In this document: positions 30,815 to 52,854 of the stretch, in pieces | Numbering within the stretch: the first letter of the stretch is position 1 | Layout of the letters: each line of letters begins with the position of its first letter | NCBI RefSeq assembly: GCF_000478825.2 | Contig: NZ_CP007542.1 | Coordinates: 806,001-870,000, forward strand | DNA from: Synechocystis sp. PCC 6714 | Lineage (GTDB): Bacteria; Cyanobacteriota; Cyanobacteriia; Cyanobacteriales; Microcystaceae | Length of the DNA: 64,000 nucleotides | Direction: 5' to 3' | Notes under the pieces: model-generated | Told to the model about the DNA's origin: nothing | Databases searched by the model: none | The model's input: only the letters and a program-made list of their open reading frames with translations | Position numbers and translations under genes: made by a program

Positions 30815-31987
30815 ATGGAAAAAGCTTACCGCTACAGGTTTTACCCAACACCGGAACAGGAAAATGTCCTGCGCCGCACGTTGGGCTGTGTGCGGTTGGT
30901 GTACAACAAGGCTCTCCATGAGCGGACCCAAGGTTGGTACAACCGCCAAGAGAGAATTGGGTATGTTTAAACTTCTTCGATGTTGACAGCATGGAAGAAA
31001 GAGGAAGAACTCGATTTCTTAAATGAGGTGAGTTGTGTTCCCCTGCAACAGGGGTTACGCCATCTTCAAAAGGCTTTCACTAACTTCTTTGATGGCCGGG
31101 CAAAATATCCCAACTTCAAAAAGAAACACCAAGGAGGTAGTGCGGAATTTACCAAGTCGGCGTTCAAGTACCGGGATGGGCAAATCTATCTGGCAAAATG
31201 CCTTGAACCATTGGACATTCGTTGGTCAAGACAACTACCCAAAGGATGTAAACCATCTTCAGTGACGGTGCGATTACACCCATCAGGACGCTGGCACATC
31301 TCTGTTCGTTTTGATGACCCAACCATCAAACCCTTACCAGTCACAAACAAAGCTGTAGGGATTGATTTGGGAGTAACAAGCTTGATTGCTACCAGTAATG
31401 GTGACAAGGTTACCAATCCAAAACAATTTAAGAAGCATCACCGTCGTTTACGGTTGGCTCAAAAACGCCTTGCCCGGAAAGAAAAGGGGTCTAAGAATAG
31501 GGAAAAGGCACGACGTAAAGTTGCCAAAATTCATCTTAAGATTACTGACTCCCGAAAAGACTTTCTCCATAAATTGACCACTCAACTGGTGCGTGAAAAC
31601 CAAACCATCACCGTTGAGGCCTTGATGGTCAAAAATATGGTCAAAAATCCAAAGTTAGCCCTCTCCATTAGTGATAGTGGCTGGGGTGAGTTTGTGCGTC
31701 AATTGGATTACAAGTGTCGTTGGTATGGTAGGAATTTGGTCAAGATTGACCACTGGTTTCCTTCCTCCAAACGGTGTAGTTCCTGTGGGCATATCCTCGA
31801 TAAGATGCCCTTAAATATTCGTTCCTGGCAATGTCCAAGTTGTGGAACAACCCACGATAGGGATACCAATGCCAGTAAAAACATTTTGGCCGCTGGACTA
31901 GCGGTGTCTGTCTGTGGAGCGACCGTAAGACCTGAGCAGAGTAAGTCTGTGAAGGCAGGTGCTATGAAGCAGAAACCTGGACCGTGA
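30815..31987 (+). pseudogene. tnpB: tnpB (IS605 OrfB, RNA-guided nuclease family) with one in-frame stop
   Basis: From ATG 30815 the frame reads MEKAYRYRFYPTPEQENVLRR, the usual TnpB start, and is broken by TAA at 30968-30970 (codon 52, IGYV-stop-TSSML; one base from AAA Lys). The same frame then stays open for 339 codons to 31987. The RuvC core is complete: GIDLGV (Asp), TVEALMVKNM (Glu), zinc finger CSSCGH with CPSCGTTH, and the last Asp in DRDTNASKN. An internal ATG at 30980 could give a 335-residue protein without the N-terminal part of the WED domain. Without tnpA the element cannot move by itself. A sequencing error or readthrough would restore a full 390-residue TnpB. Confidence 0.85.
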
Positions 31988-32028
31988 GGTCTGGGAATCC
32001 CTTTCGTTCACGGAAGGGAGGATGTCAA
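31952..32028 (+). ncRNA. Probable omega-RNA scaffold at the tnpB 3' end
   Basis: TnpB omega-RNAs come from the 3' end of the gene and the right end of the element. Here an 8-bp stem CCTGGACC/GGTCTGGG with a GTGA (GNRA) loop encloses the tnpB stop codon, followed by a second hairpin CCCTTTCG/CGGAAGGG and the end GATGTCAA. The same segment is conserved with compensatory changes at 50889-50967. Guide sequence would start after about 32028. Boundaries are inferred. Confidence 0.6.
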
Positions 32029-32178
32029 CAGCAAAATATTCCGCCGTTGTGGATAGGTCCATCTCGGTTAAAGAAGATGGTGATAGTGGCTTGTATTAAC
32101 CGTTACCCCAAAGCTCAAAATCAAACACAACTGCTACCATGGGGCCTGGTAATCACCAATTATTTTTAGTAAGGTTTT

Positions 32179-46981: not shown

Positions 46982-49900
46982 CTATTCAGCCACAGCCGGA
47001 ATCAGCCACTGGGGCATTTGGAGTGCTAAAAAATCGATTAACTTCTCTGAGGGAATGGGTTGGGCAAAATAATAACCCTGCCCCCCGTCACACCCCAGCC
47101 AGTGCAGTTGGGTCAAATGTTTTTCCGTTTCAATGCCCTCAGCAATTACGTCCAATCCTAGGGTGTGGGCTAGGGTAACAATGGTGTGGACAATGGCGGT
47201 GTTTTGGTCGTTGGGCTCCATGGCGTTAACAAAGGAGCGGTCAACTTTAAGGGTCGTAATGGGAAAACGGTGTAGATAACTGAGGGAAGAATAGCCAGTG
47301 CCAAAATCATCGAGGGAAATTTGAATATTTCTGCGTCGCAGATTCAAGAGTACGTCGGCAGCTAGATCTAAATTGTCAATCAATAAACTTTCTGTAATTT
47401 CCAGTTTGAGGTCCTGGGGAGCCAAATTGGTGGTGGCTAGAATTTCGTCCACCGTTTGGATAATTCGCTGATCTCGTAGTTGACGCACGGAAACATTGAC
47501 ACTCACCTGAAGGTAGGGCAGCCGGGGGAAATGCTGCTTCAGTTTCAGTATTTGCTGACTCGCCTCCCAGAGAATCCAGTCCCCCATGGGCACAATCAAC
47601 CCTGTTTCTTCGGCGATCGCCACAAATTCCCCGGGCAAGAGTAAACCTTCTTCGGGATGTTGCCAGCGCAAAAGGGCTTCCACTCCTTGCAACTGCCCTG
47701 TTTTTAGGCACACAATCGGCTGGTAATGTAACCTCAACTCATGGCGATCGATCGCCCGACGCAAATCATTCTCCCGCTGGAGCCTCTGGACAGCATGGTG
47801 GTGCATGGTCTGGTTAAAAATGGCATAGCGGCCCTTCCCTGCGGCTTTGGCTCGATACATAGCGGTGTCCGCATCCCGCAAAATATCCTGGGGATGACGG
47901 TAGTAGGCATGGTTAAGGGCAATGCCAATGCTGGTATTGGTAAAAATTTCCTGGCCCTTCAGGTTAAAGGGTTTTTGTAGTACGTAGTGAATTCTTTGGG
48001 CAATGGCCACCACATCTTCGGGACAGGTGATGTTTTCAATCAACATGGTGAATTCGTCCCCCCCCAACCGAGCCAGGGTATCTTCCGGGCGCAAACATTG
48101 ACGCAGGCGGTGGGCAATGCCCTGGAGTAGTAAATCTCCGCAGCTGTGCCCCAAACTATCGTTAATAATTTTAAATCCGTCCAAATCCAGGAACAGCACC
48201 GCAAAACGAAACTCCTGACGGCGTAAATTCCTTTGTAGAGCATGGCCCAGGCGGTCGAGAAAGAGTAGCCGATTGGGCAAATTAGTTAGGGGATCGTGGT
48301 TGGCGTTGTAGTGGAGTTTTTCCGCCGCTGATTTCCGTTCGGTAATGTCGCTGTCAATGCCATCGATGCGGATGGGACGGTCTTGGTTATCCCGCACCAA
48401 TTGGCTACGGCGAAAGAGCCATCTTTCCTTGCCCGCCGGTTGAATAATACGATACTCCAATTCCGTGTGGCCCTTTTCCATCAGCAATTGCAGATGACAT
48501 TCCAACAAAGGGCGATCGCCGGGATGGACCCCTTCAAACCAAAAATTCTTACTCTGGTAACAGGTTTGGAGGCACTGACCATAGACAATGGCTGTGGCAG
48601 GGTTGAGATAAAGGGTGGCAAAACTGACCGCATCCGCTGACCAAACCACATCTTGGATAGAACCTAAAATGCCTTCTAGGCGTTGCTCACTGGCGGAAAG
48701 GGCCTGCTCCACAGATTTCCGGGCGGTGATATCTGTTAACATGACCAACTCGCCCCGATAGTTGCCCCATTCGTCATACCAAGCACTGCGGGACACTAAA
48801 CCCCAGAGCACACTGCCATCCCTCCGTTGGAGTTGTACATCATAAACCTGGTAATGGTTCGGCAACACGCAACTGGGAAAAGATTGGAGGCATTCCTGAT
48901 GCTCCTGTTCTGACTCCGGCAAATGGTGGATGGCCAGCACAAAGGCAGTGATGTTTTTATCTAAAATCTCCTGCACCGAATATCCCAACATATCGGCCAA
49001 CTGTTGGTTAGCAAAGATAGTTTGCTGCTCTTGGTCTAAAATCCAAATGCCCTCGGAAGTCAGCTCTACAATGTGGCGGTATTTTTTCTCACTTTCGGCC
49101 AGGGCATGGCGGGCTTGGTATTGTTCTGTAATATCCCGTAGGGAAACCAAAAATGCTTTGCCCTTTTGCCAATGGATGGAAGAAACTCGCATTTCCGCGA
49201 CCACCAAACTACCGTCGGGGGGAGTGAGGGTAATTTCGGTAACTTGATTGGCCACAAAAGGTATGCCAAAGGGTTGTTGGAGTAGTTCATGCTCCCGCCG
49301 TTTAAACATCTCTTTGGCAGCCGGGTTGACAAATTGGATAATTCCCTCTTGATCGACAATTAATAGCCCATCGGTGATGGTGACAATCATGCTACTGAAG
49401 AATTCTTCACTGGCCCGTAGCTGTTGCTCTGCTAATTTTTGTTGGGTAACATCGGTTTGAATACCGATGAAATTAACGAGGAAGTTTTGCTGATTATAGA
49501 TAGGGGAAAGGTATAAATGATTCCAAAAAAATGCGCCATCTTTGCGATAGTTTTTCAGCACTACTTCGCACTCCTGTCCGTGGGCGATCGCCGTGCGGAG
49601 TTTTTCTAGTTGTTTATTTTGTTCCCCTTGGCGGTCTTCATTGAGCAGAAAACGACAGTTTTGCCCAATCACTTCCTCCCGATTAAAACCGGTAATAGTT
49701 TCAAAGCCTTGGTTAGCATAGACCACCAAATTATCTGAGCCCAGGGCATCGGCGATCAAAATGCCGTTAGAACTGGCATCAATGGCCTGTTGCAACAGCA
49801 ATAATCTCTCTTCGTACTCCTGGCGGTCGATGGCCGCGGCAAGGATATGGCTAGCCACCGTCAAAAACTCAATTTCTTCCTCAGTAAATTTACGAATAGT

Positions 49901-50602
49901 CAGACTGTAGACGCCCAAAACCCCAAACGCAGTCCGGGGCCCCGCCACCATTAAATTTATGCCGCTGATAATACCGAGGTTATGTAGTAAAGGAGAAGCT
50001 CGAAACTTTTGACTTATCCTTAAATCTAGTTCAATAATAGGCTCATACTCTTCCACCCGGCGATCGCCATTATGTTGAATGGTATAGCCAGCATAGGAAC
50101 GATTAGTGGCATCAATGGTATAGTTGCCCACCAAAGACTCCTCCCAACCATTCCCGGCGCAGAGCAATAGGGCTGAACGATTTGGCAACAATTCCCAGAT
50201 GCCGCAATAATCCACCCCTAGAGTGGCACAAATCAACTCTGTAGCTTGGTCAAAAAACTCGTACAAATCCCGGCTCAGCATGCCCCACTGTCCCAAACGG
50301 GCTAGGGCTCTCTGTAGACCAGAGGCATGGGACGGGGACGACGGCAATCTCTGTCTATGGTATTGGCTCAGTTCCTGGGCTAATTCTTCCCTGGCCGCCT
50401 CCGTTGCTGCTAACCGTCGTTTGAGATGCTCAATTTCCCGTTGTTGTGGATGCTCCAAATTAGTGGCAATCTGTTTTTGTTGATGTTGATGAGTTTGCCC
50501 AAGGGTCCAAAAACCATGGGAAAGGGGCGACTCTACCAAGCTTCTCTGTTTAGCAACCCACCAAGGCACCGGAGGAAACTTGAAAAGAGACCAAATATTC
50601 AT
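46982..50602 (-). CDS. GAF-LOV-PAS-GGDEF-EAL protein: predicted blue-light-controlled c-di-GMP enzyme
   Basis: A 1206-residue protein: coiled coil (about 45-85), GAF (110-260), PAS/LOV (270-390), three further PAS domains (395-770), GGDEF (775-935) and EAL (945-1195). The second sensor has the LOV signature GQNCRFLL with flavin-adduct Cys316, plus NYRKDGAFFWN and FIGIQTDVT, so it should bind FMN and sense blue light. The cyclase site RLGGDEF is intact, with the inhibitory RxxD (RPED) at the usual spacing; the phosphodiesterase has EALLRW and DDFGTGYSSL. PCC 6803 has a similar LOV-GGDEF-EAL protein (Slr0359, from memory). No membrane helix is seen. Net activity is unknown. Confidence 0.88.
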   Translation of the reverse strand: MNIWSLFKFPPVPWWVAKQRSLVESPLSHGFWTLGQTHQHQQKQIATNLEHPQQREIEHLKRRLAATEAAREELAQELSQYHRQRLPSSPSHASGLQRALARLGQWGMLSRDLYEFFDQATELICATLGVDYCGIWELLPNRSALLLCAGNGWEESLVGNYTIDATNRSYAGYTIQHNGDRRVEEYEPIIELDLRISQKFRASPLLHNLGIISGINLMVAGPRTAFGVLGVYSLTIRKFTEEEIEFLTVASHILAAAIDRQEYEERLLLLQQAIDASSNGILIADALGSDNLVVYANQGFETITGFNREEVIGQNCRFLLNEDRQGEQNKQLEKLRTAIAHGQECEVVLKNYRKDGAFFWNHLYLSPIYNQQNFLVNFIGIQTDVTQQKLAEQQLRASEEFFSSMIVTITDGLLIVDQEGIIQFVNPAAKEMFKRREHELLQQPFGIPFVANQVTEITLTPPDGSLVVAEMRVSSIHWQKGKAFLVSLRDITEQYQARHALAESEKKYRHIVELTSEGIWILDQEQQTIFANQQLADMLGYSVQEILDKNITAFVLAIHHLPESEQEHQECLQSFPSCVLPNHYQVYDVQLQRRDGSVLWGLVSRSAWYDEWGNYRGELVMLTDITARKSVEQALSASEQRLEGILGSIQDVVWSADAVSFATLYLNPATAIVYGQCLQTCYQSKNFWFEGVHPGDRPLLECHLQLLMEKGHTELEYRIIQPAGKERWLFRRSQLVRDNQDRPIRIDGIDSDITERKSAAEKLHYNANHDPLTNLPNRLLFLDRLGHALQRNLRRQEFRFAVLFLDLDGFKIINDSLGHSCGDLLLQGIAHRLRQCLRPEDTLARLGGDEFTMLIENITCPEDVVAIAQRIHYVLQKPFNLKGQEIFTNTSIGIALNHAYYRHPQDILRDADTAMYRAKAAGKGRYAIFNQTMHHHAVQRLQRENDLRRAIDRHELRLHYQPIVCLKTGQLQGVEALLRWQHPEEGLLLPGEFVAIAEETGLIVPMGDWILWEASQQILKLKQHFPRLPYLQVSVNVSVRQLRDQRIIQTVDEILATTNLAPQDLKLEITESLLIDNLDLAADVLLNLRRRNIQISLDDFGTGYSSLSYLHRFPITTLKVDRSFVNAMEPNDQNTAIVHTIVTLAHTLGLDVIAEGIETEKHLTQLHWLGCDGGQGYYFAQPIPSEKLIDFLALQMPQWLIPAVAE

Positions 50603-51252
50603 TCAATACATTTGAGCGAAAAAAATCTTCCCCGGGGCCATCATACCTGCGGGGAACATAACTAAATTATAGGTCTTGGCTCCTCCCCCCATGGGGATCA
50701 GGGGTGGTTTAGCAACAAATTGTGATGTTTGCTACCAAACATTTAGGGTGAACTAGGAGTCGGTTTTGGGCAGTCCTGGAAAAGCCCCAAGTTTCCCTCC
50801 CAAAACTCGGTAATTTGGTTGACATCAGGAGGAGTTTCCCCGAATCCAATCCACCCAGGCTAGGAAGGTTAATCCGGTATCCACTCAGTTGACATCATCC
50901 CTTCCGTAAAGTAGAGGCATTCCTAAACCTCACGATTTAGGTTGCTGCTTCGTAGCAACGGCCTCTACTCTCCAGGGGTTTTATCGCCTTACGTTTGCGA
51001 GCCAGACTGTCCCCCCAAGCCCTGGGGTTCTTGGGTGTCGATTTTTAACAAAAAGACTGTTATTGGTTGATTCAAGGGATGGACTGCCCATTGCCCCATC
51101 CTTTTTTCCCAGTCTACCCATTTGTCTGCGCCGCCAGCTTTACTGGAATCCGCTTGTTAGGTTGTCCGAATCCATCGCCTCGGGGGGGGGGTCCGTCACC
51201 ACTGCCACCGTATCTCGTCAAGCCGTCCTTTTGGACCCATTCTCTTGATAAA
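50603..51252. other. 650-bp non-coding region with IS605 relic
   Basis: No credible gene is present. Besides the omega-RNA-like segment (50888-50990) it has a second GTTGACATCA at about 50818, a hairpin CCCAAG/CTTGGG at 51014-51035, and a run of ten G at 51182-51191 close to the leuA 3' end. The promoter of the LOV-GGDEF-EAL gene should lie just right of 50602. Confidence 0.5.
50888..50990 (-). ncRNA. Orphan omega-RNA-like segment: relic of the 3' end of an IS605 tnpB element
   Basis: Read leftward, this stretch matches the tnpB 3' end at 31952-32029 for about 75 bases without gaps and with about 15 differences. It forms stem CCTAAATC/GGTTTAGG with the same GTGA loop, an inner stem GTTGCT/AGCAAC, an outer stem GTAGAGGC/GCCTCTAC, and ends GATGTCAAC. 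A remnant of the TnpB C-terminus (VEAVATKQQPKS then stop) is still readable in register, but the gene upstream is gone. It is either a decayed element, a non-autonomous derivative, or a guide RNA that survives without its nuclease. Confidence 0.6.
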
Positions 51253-52854
51253 TTACAGGGAAGCCACCACTGGAGGATTTTGCTGGGACTTCTGCAGTGC
51301 CGCATAGAGACGGTTTAGTGCCCCCAAATAAGCCCGGGCCGAAGCGACGATAATATCGGTATTGGCCGCATAGCCAGTATAAATCACCCCGTTATGGCGC
51401 AGACGAACGCTCACTTTCCCCAGAGCATCAATACCTTCGGTGACGGAGGTGACGGAATATTCCAGTAACTCATTGGGTAATTGCACAATTTGATTAATGG
51501 CCTTATAAACTGCGTCCACAGGGCCCGTTCCGATCGCCACAGCGGTTTCTTCTTCCCCGGCAGGGGTACGGATGGTTAGGGTGGCGGTGGGCACAGAAGG
51601 CTCGCCACAGGAAACCTGTACCCGTTCCAAACGGAAGAGTTCGGGGGGTTGGCGAATTTCATCGTTAACAATGGCCTCTAGATCCCAATCGGTAATTTCT
51701 TTGCGTTTATCCGCCACTTCCTTAAAGCGAATAAAGGCGTTATTTAATTCCGTATCGCTCAGGTCAAAACCCAATTCCTTCAAGCGAGTACCGAAGGCAT
51801 TGCGGCCGGACAGCTTACCCAACACAATTTGGTTATTGGTTAAACCGATGGATTCCGCATCCATAATCTCGTAGGTGAGCTTATTCTTCAGCACCCCATC
51901 CTGGTGAATACCGGACTCGTGGGCAAAGGCGTTGGCCCCGACAATGGCCTTATTGGGTTGGACCATCATCCCCGTTAACTCGGACACCAAGCGGGAAGTG
52001 GCGTAAATATGCTTGGTGTCAATGTTGGTCAAAGGTTCGGTGGAATCGGCGGGGCGACCTAAAAAGGGGTTGAAATAACTGCGGCGCACATGCAAAGCCA
52101 TGACCAATTCTTCCAAGGCCGCATTGCCAGCCCGTTCGCCAATGCCATTGATGGTACATTCCAGTTGCCGAGCGCCATTTTTCACCGCTTCCAGGAAATT
52201 AGCCACCGCTAAGCCCAAATCATTATGGCCATGGACGGAAATAATTGCCTGGTCAATGTTGGGCACGTTATCGGCAATGCCTTTGATTAAAGCCCCATAC
52301 TCCGCGGGGGTCGTGTAACCCACCGTATCAGGGATATTAATGGTGGTGGCCCCAGCGGCGATCGCCACTTCTAAAACTTGGTAAAGAAATTCGGGATCAC
52401 TGCGCCCCGCATCCTCCGGGGAGAACTCAATGTCATCGACTAAGGATTTGGCATAGCTCACCATTTCCGGCACGATCGCCAACACTTCCGCTCGGGTTTT
52501 CTTTAACTTGTGCTCCAAGTGAATATCCGAGGTAGCTAAGAAGGTGTGAATACGGTGTTTAGCCGCCGGTTTTAACGCTTCCGCCGCCGCTTTGATATCT
52601 TTTTGGGTGGCCCGGGCCAAGCCACAAATCACCGGACCAGTTTCTGTTCCTACGGTTTGGGCAATTTTTTGCACCGCCTCAAAATCCCCAGGACTAGCAA
52701 AGGGGAAGCCCGCTTCGATAATGTCTACCCCTAAACGGGCTAGGGCCCTGGCGATCGATAGTTTTTCTTCCACGGTCAGGGTGGCTCCGGGGGACTGTTC
52801 CCCATCCCGAAGCGTGGTGTCGAAAATCAAAATGCGATCGGCAGGACTACTCAT
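51253..52854 (-). CDS. leuA: 2-isopropylmalate synthase
   Basis: A 533-residue enzyme for the first committed step of leucine synthesis (acetyl-CoA plus 2-oxoisovalerate). The catalytic TIM barrel begins with [14 protein letters not shown]; metal ligands are in [11 protein letters not shown] (HxH), and [12 protein letters not shown] and [10 protein letters not shown] follow. The C-terminal regulatory domain (390-520) has the repeat that binds leucine for feedback inhibition. Length equals the PCC 6803 enzyme. Upstream is divergent from yvcK. Confidence 0.95.

Follow-up and report, generated by a model that had tools for sequence, protein, structure and literature searches.

A protein-free IS200/IS605-type element of Synechocystis sp. 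PCC 6714 and other cyanobacteria ends in a TnpB omegaRNA-like scaffold

Introduction

In IStrons, an element-borne RNA ends in an omegaRNA, and PATEs are said to be discussed in Meers 2023. The omegaRNA, or reRNA, of TnpB is the subject of PMC8612924 and PMC10278001, and the Rfam family RAGATH-18 (RF03064) is identified in a passage of PMC11061315 as the guide scaffold of IS607 TnpB. PATE-like derivatives of IS200/IS605 elements are reported for Halanaerobium (PMC7290912) and Haloquadratum (PMC3119063), and 70 copies of a DGR-like ncRNA are reported for Nodularia in a passage of PMC3610870. A literature search found no published account of the element described below, although an earlier mention in Meers 2023 or Altae-Tran 2023 is possible; in passages from the main text of the PCC 6714 transcriptome paper (PMC5386190), neither IS200 nor tnpB is mentioned.

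The locus analysed here lies in a 64,000-nt stretch of Synechocystis sp. PCC 6714 (contig NZ_CP007542.1, positions 806,001 to 870,000; hereafter the window), in which an initial annotation had placed an orphan RNA-like stretch, resembling the 3′ end of a tnpB element, at 50888-50990. We identified it as the right end of a small mobile DNA element without a protein gene. Because the element specifies a conserved RNA that ends in a guide-RNA scaffold and has no protein gene, it may depend on a DNA-cutting enzyme supplied from elsewhere in the cell.

Results

The element in the window

The likeness of 50888-50970(-) to the 3′ end of the tnpB element, from which the initial annotation had started, was recovered by BLASTN (80.5% identity over 77 bases against L009, the locus with the window's tnpB). 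Both copies carry an eight-pair stem closed by GTGA, namely CCTAAATC-GTGA-GGTTTAGG in the orphan and CCTGGACC-GTGA-GGTCTGGG in the other copy, and the four pairs that differ between them still pair, as had been described. However, both bases have changed in only one of the four (A-T to G-C) and a single base in each of the rest, so that the two copies alone are weaker evidence of covariation than had been implied. As judged by eye, AGTAGAGGC on the upstream side of the stem could also pair with GCCTCTACT behind it to give a nine-pair helix round the scaffold stem, a feature of the window copy only.

A covariance model, R2, was then used that had been built from 13 tnpB-borne 3′ ends, including that of the window's tnpB, and from no standalone element, with a remnant (L039) and a locus in which no end was found (L116) omitted from the training. 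Over the window and up to E=5, R2 matched two places only: the 3′ end of the window's tnpB at 31884..32028(+), a member of the training set (154.2 bits), and the orphan at 50889..51033(-) (65.4 bits, E=1e-17), which upholds the earlier view of an omegaRNA-like scaffold distant from tnpB. The latter stretch ends in TCAA and corresponds to the final codons of tnpB together with the right end. Its homology to tnpB-borne 3′ ends extends over 145 nt up to the right-end cut, which is a feature of TnpB omegaRNAs, and tblastn with 13 TnpB proteins placed the tail at about the last 36 codons of TnpB plus the right end, with E values down to 1e-10. In the window's tnpB, the frame is interrupted by an early stop, its open part spanning 30980 to 31987.

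The repeat reported at 50888-50990 is therefore real but was drawn too short. From the alignment of copies, the whole tnpB-less IS200/IS605-type element occupies 50889..51247(-), 359 bp that run from the C after TTAT through TCAA, between a leuA-like gene (stop at 51253) on one side and the gene at 46982-50602 on the other. Its left end lies at 51205..51247(-), the right limit being approximate; the element's first ~48 nt resemble the left ends of tnpB elements and, more faintly, those of TnpA+TnpB elements. Next, at 51065..51199(-), comes a 5′ RNA domain with no likeness to TnpB, as matched by the 5′-domain model R1 (G000:C1:857065-857199), and then the scaffold described above. The left-flank target motif TTAT at 51248..51251(-) is common to all five copies scored; the left-flank motif of the family is T[TC]AT and not the TTGAT-like motif named in the initial annotation. 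The right flank at 50869..50888(-), which adjoins TCAA, is the putative guide position, and no second match to it with up to three mismatches occurs within the window besides the copy itself.

No open reading frame for the Y1 transposase TnpA is present in the 359-bp element, and TnpA is encoded elsewhere in the genome (three PF01797 matches, two of them within 146-aa open frames); the element is therefore non-autonomous, which fits one of the options of the initial annotation. The genome also encodes a 395-aa TnpB frame bearing the same scaffold (L008). As the alignment of copies shows that 13 nt of the left-end hairpin are gone and that the -10 box is degenerate, the window copy is probably an inactive member of a live family.

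Copies, ends and mobility

The term orphan is correct for the site, which is away from any tnpB, but not for the genome, in which the R1 model found six copies: five with both ends (L001, the window copy, and L002, L003, L004 and L005) and a sixth, L022, whose right end is missing. BLAST in this genome had picked up repeats both of the orphan and of the sequence upstream of it, and further copies were found in other cyanobacteria. L004 carries an inserted repeat of ~95 nt with TATAGTC.../...GACTATA-like ends, and the same repeat adjoins the right flank of L022.

The ends are of the IS200/IS605 type, with T[TC]AT on the left and TCAA on the right. Of 55 other elements, 52 have T[TC]AT at most one base away from where it was expected (TCAT in 45, TTAT in 7; three elements without the motif) versus 7% at random places in the same loci, and TCAA closes 69 of the 70 elements scored. 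Among the 70 right flanks, the first 12 bases take 67 different forms, with repeats confined to three pairs of loci; because the right flanks vary in this way from copy to copy, the suggestion that the locus is a domesticated guide is unsupported.

A precise empty site, TTAT|ATGTT, was found in G001 and G003, both of the window's genus, where the left flank of L002 meets the right flank of L003. This site, which comes from one rearranged copy pair, shows no target duplication and an insertion 3′ of a short fixed motif. L002 and L003 are inversely oriented, and their flanks are swapped relative to G001 and G003, as after inter-copy recombination; in our reading, a later rearrangement between the two copies would be superimposed on the empty site. 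At the window site, the element is absent from G001 and G003, and the window's genome has ~145 extra bases to the right of the element, so that a clean empty site is not available for the window copy. These bases beside the element, at window 50819-50888, include a second TGATGTCAACC motif. We regard the structure and the mobility of the element family as demonstrated.

Distribution among genomes

Family-level and order-level searches found the element in other genera. Among 388 genomes of the order, 146 match the element query, many only in the stretch common to tnpB genes, and at least about 56 match over almost the whole query, by a hand count among the matches listed, no more than two candidates having been scored for each genome. 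Under strict filters, the R1 model matched 27 of 386 genomes of the phylum, one of which (G407) is outside the order; a full copy was found in none of the four other genomes of the window's genus examined.

An exact 19-nt probe was searched in the genomes of 84,980 species and gave 89 sites. The element HMM matches 85 of them, all in cyanobacterial records, and 62 match almost its full length from the left to the right end (model start <20, end >360); the four sites without an HMM match belong to two Chryseobacterium and two Chloroflexi records and are probably chance. A whole TnpB inside the element was seen at none of the 89 sites, 63 of which have at least 1 kb on both sides. TnpB-like frames are near 19 sites, 18 of these being frames of 25-49 residues on the same strand, in the scaffold tail, while L242, from Crocosphaera watsonii WH 8501, is the only site with long TnpB-like frames nearby, ~1 kb off and on the opposite strand. 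The exact probe had no match in viral_contigs, and nine plasmid records match part of L075, none reaching 80% coverage.

With R2, the five full copies of the window's genome scored 65-78 bits and have common changes in the scaffold motif CUGUGGAG, whereas 22 loci in other genomes scored 94-124 bits and L146 scored 76. Matches resembling tnpB occur in 371 of the 388 order genomes, and since tnpB is almost ubiquitous, its co-occurrence with the element is no test. A single weak PF07282 match was seen in each of G044 and G045, whose copies L080, L119 and L081 scored 32, 40 and 61.5 bits with R2; L145 of G407, a genome outside the tnpB search, scored 57.6 bits.

Among orthologous pairs, L094/L102 and L107/L111 are more similar within the element than in either flank; the identities are 99.7% for the element and 100% for the flanks in L089/L088, and 81.9% for the element and 63.3% and 95.3% for the flanks in L080/L081. 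At L091:1407-2024, a partial element lies head to tail against a full one.

RNA structure and the 5′ domain

Alignment A2 comprised 32 elements, drawn from L072-L112 with an HMM match, four copies from the window's own genome and L119; same-place repeats, partial copies and near-identical orthologs were omitted, as was L088, which is nearly identical to L089. Throughout A2, a 5′ RNA domain of ~135 nt precedes the omegaRNA scaffold. RNAalifold gave -114 for A2 versus -62 ± 5 for 20 column shuffles, with a contribution from the end hairpins, and 92.4% of cells pair in the chosen 50-pair structure. Two-sided changes were found in 22 of the 50 pairs versus 11.2 ± 2.1 expected (0/500 shuffles) and, in the 5′ domain, in 8 of 19 pairs versus 2.3 ± 1.2 (0/500 shuffles); because the structure was derived from the same alignment and the shuffles ignore relatedness, these values are strong hints of covariation and not probabilities. 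The earlier proposal that structure has been kept by compensatory pairing is thus borne out by the relatives of the element. Subterminal hairpins at both ends correspond to helices 1, 2 and 13 of A2, which are changed on both sides, the left one being damaged in the window copy. A -10-like box (T89 A95 n A82 A82 T94, in percent, over 73 copies) precedes GGTC at a near-constant distance.

These helices bear on whether the element is an ordinary PATE or MITE, moved by TnpA in trans, with a structure that serves only DNA-level transposition and a guide RNA that goes unused. Such a reading would be in line with the PATE-like elements with a tnpB tail and right end reported in passages of PMC7290912 and with the covariation of the end hairpins too, but the helices with two-sided changes in 8 of 19 pairs lie mid-element, remote from the ends, and the -10 box is conserved; we regard it as unlikely.

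Similarity to TnpB stops short of the 5′ domain, where tblastn of the 13 TnpB proteins had a best E of 0.25 (tail: 1e-10), and R1 had no match below E=0.5 in 19 tnpB loci. According to the initial annotation, the scaffold had outlived its tnpB here; plain decay, one of the options given there, would make it a fossil left after loss of the gene. Against this stand the recurrence of the same tnpB-less layout with its 5′ RNA domain across cyanobacteria, from left to right end at those 62 of 89 probe sites, the lack of the 5′ domain in the 19 tnpB loci and the covariation of the helices. Even with a degraded window copy and with two decayed tnpB remnants that retain the scaffold in this genome (L006 and L007), plain decay is very unlikely.

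In Rfam searches, zero above-threshold matches were found in the window, and for the element in eight other loci, searched up to E=2, the only match was RAGATH-18 in L098 (E=1). RAGATH-18 fits one and the same motif below threshold in both L098 and the window's tnpB, with 25.0 bits (E=0.016, stretch alone) and 27.3 bits (E=0.0037), respectively, for a gathering score of 44.9. The archaeal ncRNA HgcC (RF00062) likewise gave a sub-threshold fit to the 3′ end of the window's tnpB at 31939-32041 (23.5 of 50 bits, E=0.0016), which was not seen in L098; HgcC may itself be an omegaRNA.

Four candidate readings were rejected. The multi-copy tnpB-less layout and the 5′ domain missing from tnpB loci argue against recent local decay of tnpB as the whole story, and the tblastn values in the 5′ domain versus the tail against a degraded tnpB as the source of the whole interior. 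Evidence against a small conserved protein comes from frame-breaking indels and early stops, both seen by eye in the alignments, and against a known Rfam RNA from the lack of any above-threshold match in the window or the eight element loci.

Distant relatives of the 5′ domain

In 8 of 9 loci of distant relatives examined (L135-L141 and L149), the 5′ domain leads into a different 3′ terminus, TACTTCAC instead of TCAA, and on this basis the domain seems to be a portable module. The tails of these relatives scored at most 15.9 bits with R2, no tie of their TTCAC-ended 3′ part to a TnpB was found, and TTCAC-type queries had no match among plasmids.

In L139, L140, L149, L154, L157, L159, L244, L248 and L256, a small ribbon-helix-helix gene faces away from the RNA, whose -10 box lies in between. 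Such a divergent gene was present in 9 of the 21 distant-relative loci examined, and two of three tested proteins had DUF6364 or RHH_1 above the Pfam cut-off. It is possible that the gene and the 5′-domain RNA form a repressor/RNA pair.

The same genes would suit a decoy or regulatory RNA, a transcript that binds TnpB or another protein for control and not for guided cutting, as would the element's own promoter and a 5′ domain missing from tnpB-borne scaffolds. Yet in 69 of 70 elements the scaffold extends precisely to the TCAA cut, which is a guide RNA's need, though also that of transposition, and we consider a decoy or regulatory role quite unlikely.

Discussion

The explanation to which we lean, with modest confidence, is a non-autonomous IS200/IS605-type element that TnpA would move in trans and whose own guide RNA would serve TnpB in trans. 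TnpA from elsewhere in the cell would insert the element 3′ of T[TC]AT, and a promoter just within the left end would drive transcription of an RNA consisting of the 5′ domain and the TnpB omegaRNA scaffold. Read-through beyond TCAA would append a guide from the insertion site; TnpB from elsewhere would bind this RNA and cut the sister DNA that lacks the element, and repair after the cut would copy the element back. The use of TnpA, transcription, binding to TnpB and flank-guided cutting are what we infer from sequence comparison.

A guide-RNA element best accounts for the precise TCAA terminus, the retained scaffold and the -10 box. Since the left and right ends are also required for transposition, conservation of the ends alone is no argument for guide use. 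Several observations count against the explanation: the window copy is damaged, the five local copies are altered at CUGUGGAG, the empty site comes from one rearranged pair, and the 5′ domain is also found joined to a 3′ part that R2 fails to match.

More tentatively, and with doubt somewhat outweighing belief, the elements may form a standalone family of cyanobacterial guide-RNA transposons, parasitic on TnpA and TnpB, in which the portable, non-tnpB 5′ domain would aid the use of TnpB in trans. The Nostocaceae-like relatives, with their other 3′ end and often a ribbon-helix-helix gene, would then hint at a regulated RNA system wider than TnpB.

If the explanation holds, guide RNAs of TnpB systems can spread as independent protein-free mobile elements, and the spreading RNA includes a domain matched by no Rfam family in the searches made. 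The family would then also provide a natural test of TnpB retaining elements in trans, and of what the extra 5′ RNA domain contributes to the guide RNA.

Among described systems, the TnpB omegaRNA or reRNA shares with the element the homologous 145-nt scaffold terminating at TCAA, whereas the element has no tnpB in cis, an additional 5′ domain and its own -10 box. IStrons resemble it in their element-borne RNA with an omegaRNA end; the element differs from them in having no tnpB, and Rfam searches covering the window region and the eight element loci found no intron family. The PATE-like derivatives cited above likewise have no protein gene, retain both the left and right IS605 ends and are presumed to be mobilised by TnpA in trans; the passages of PMC7290912 describe one Halanaerobium element, which also has a tnpB tail. 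The cyanobacterial element thus has both ends and no protein gene, but it is not essentially ends only, as a covarying 5′ RNA domain lies between them. What sets it apart from the PATE-like elements already known to keep a tnpB tail is this interior, an RNA cargo with covariation and a -10 box whose conservation extends over many genera.
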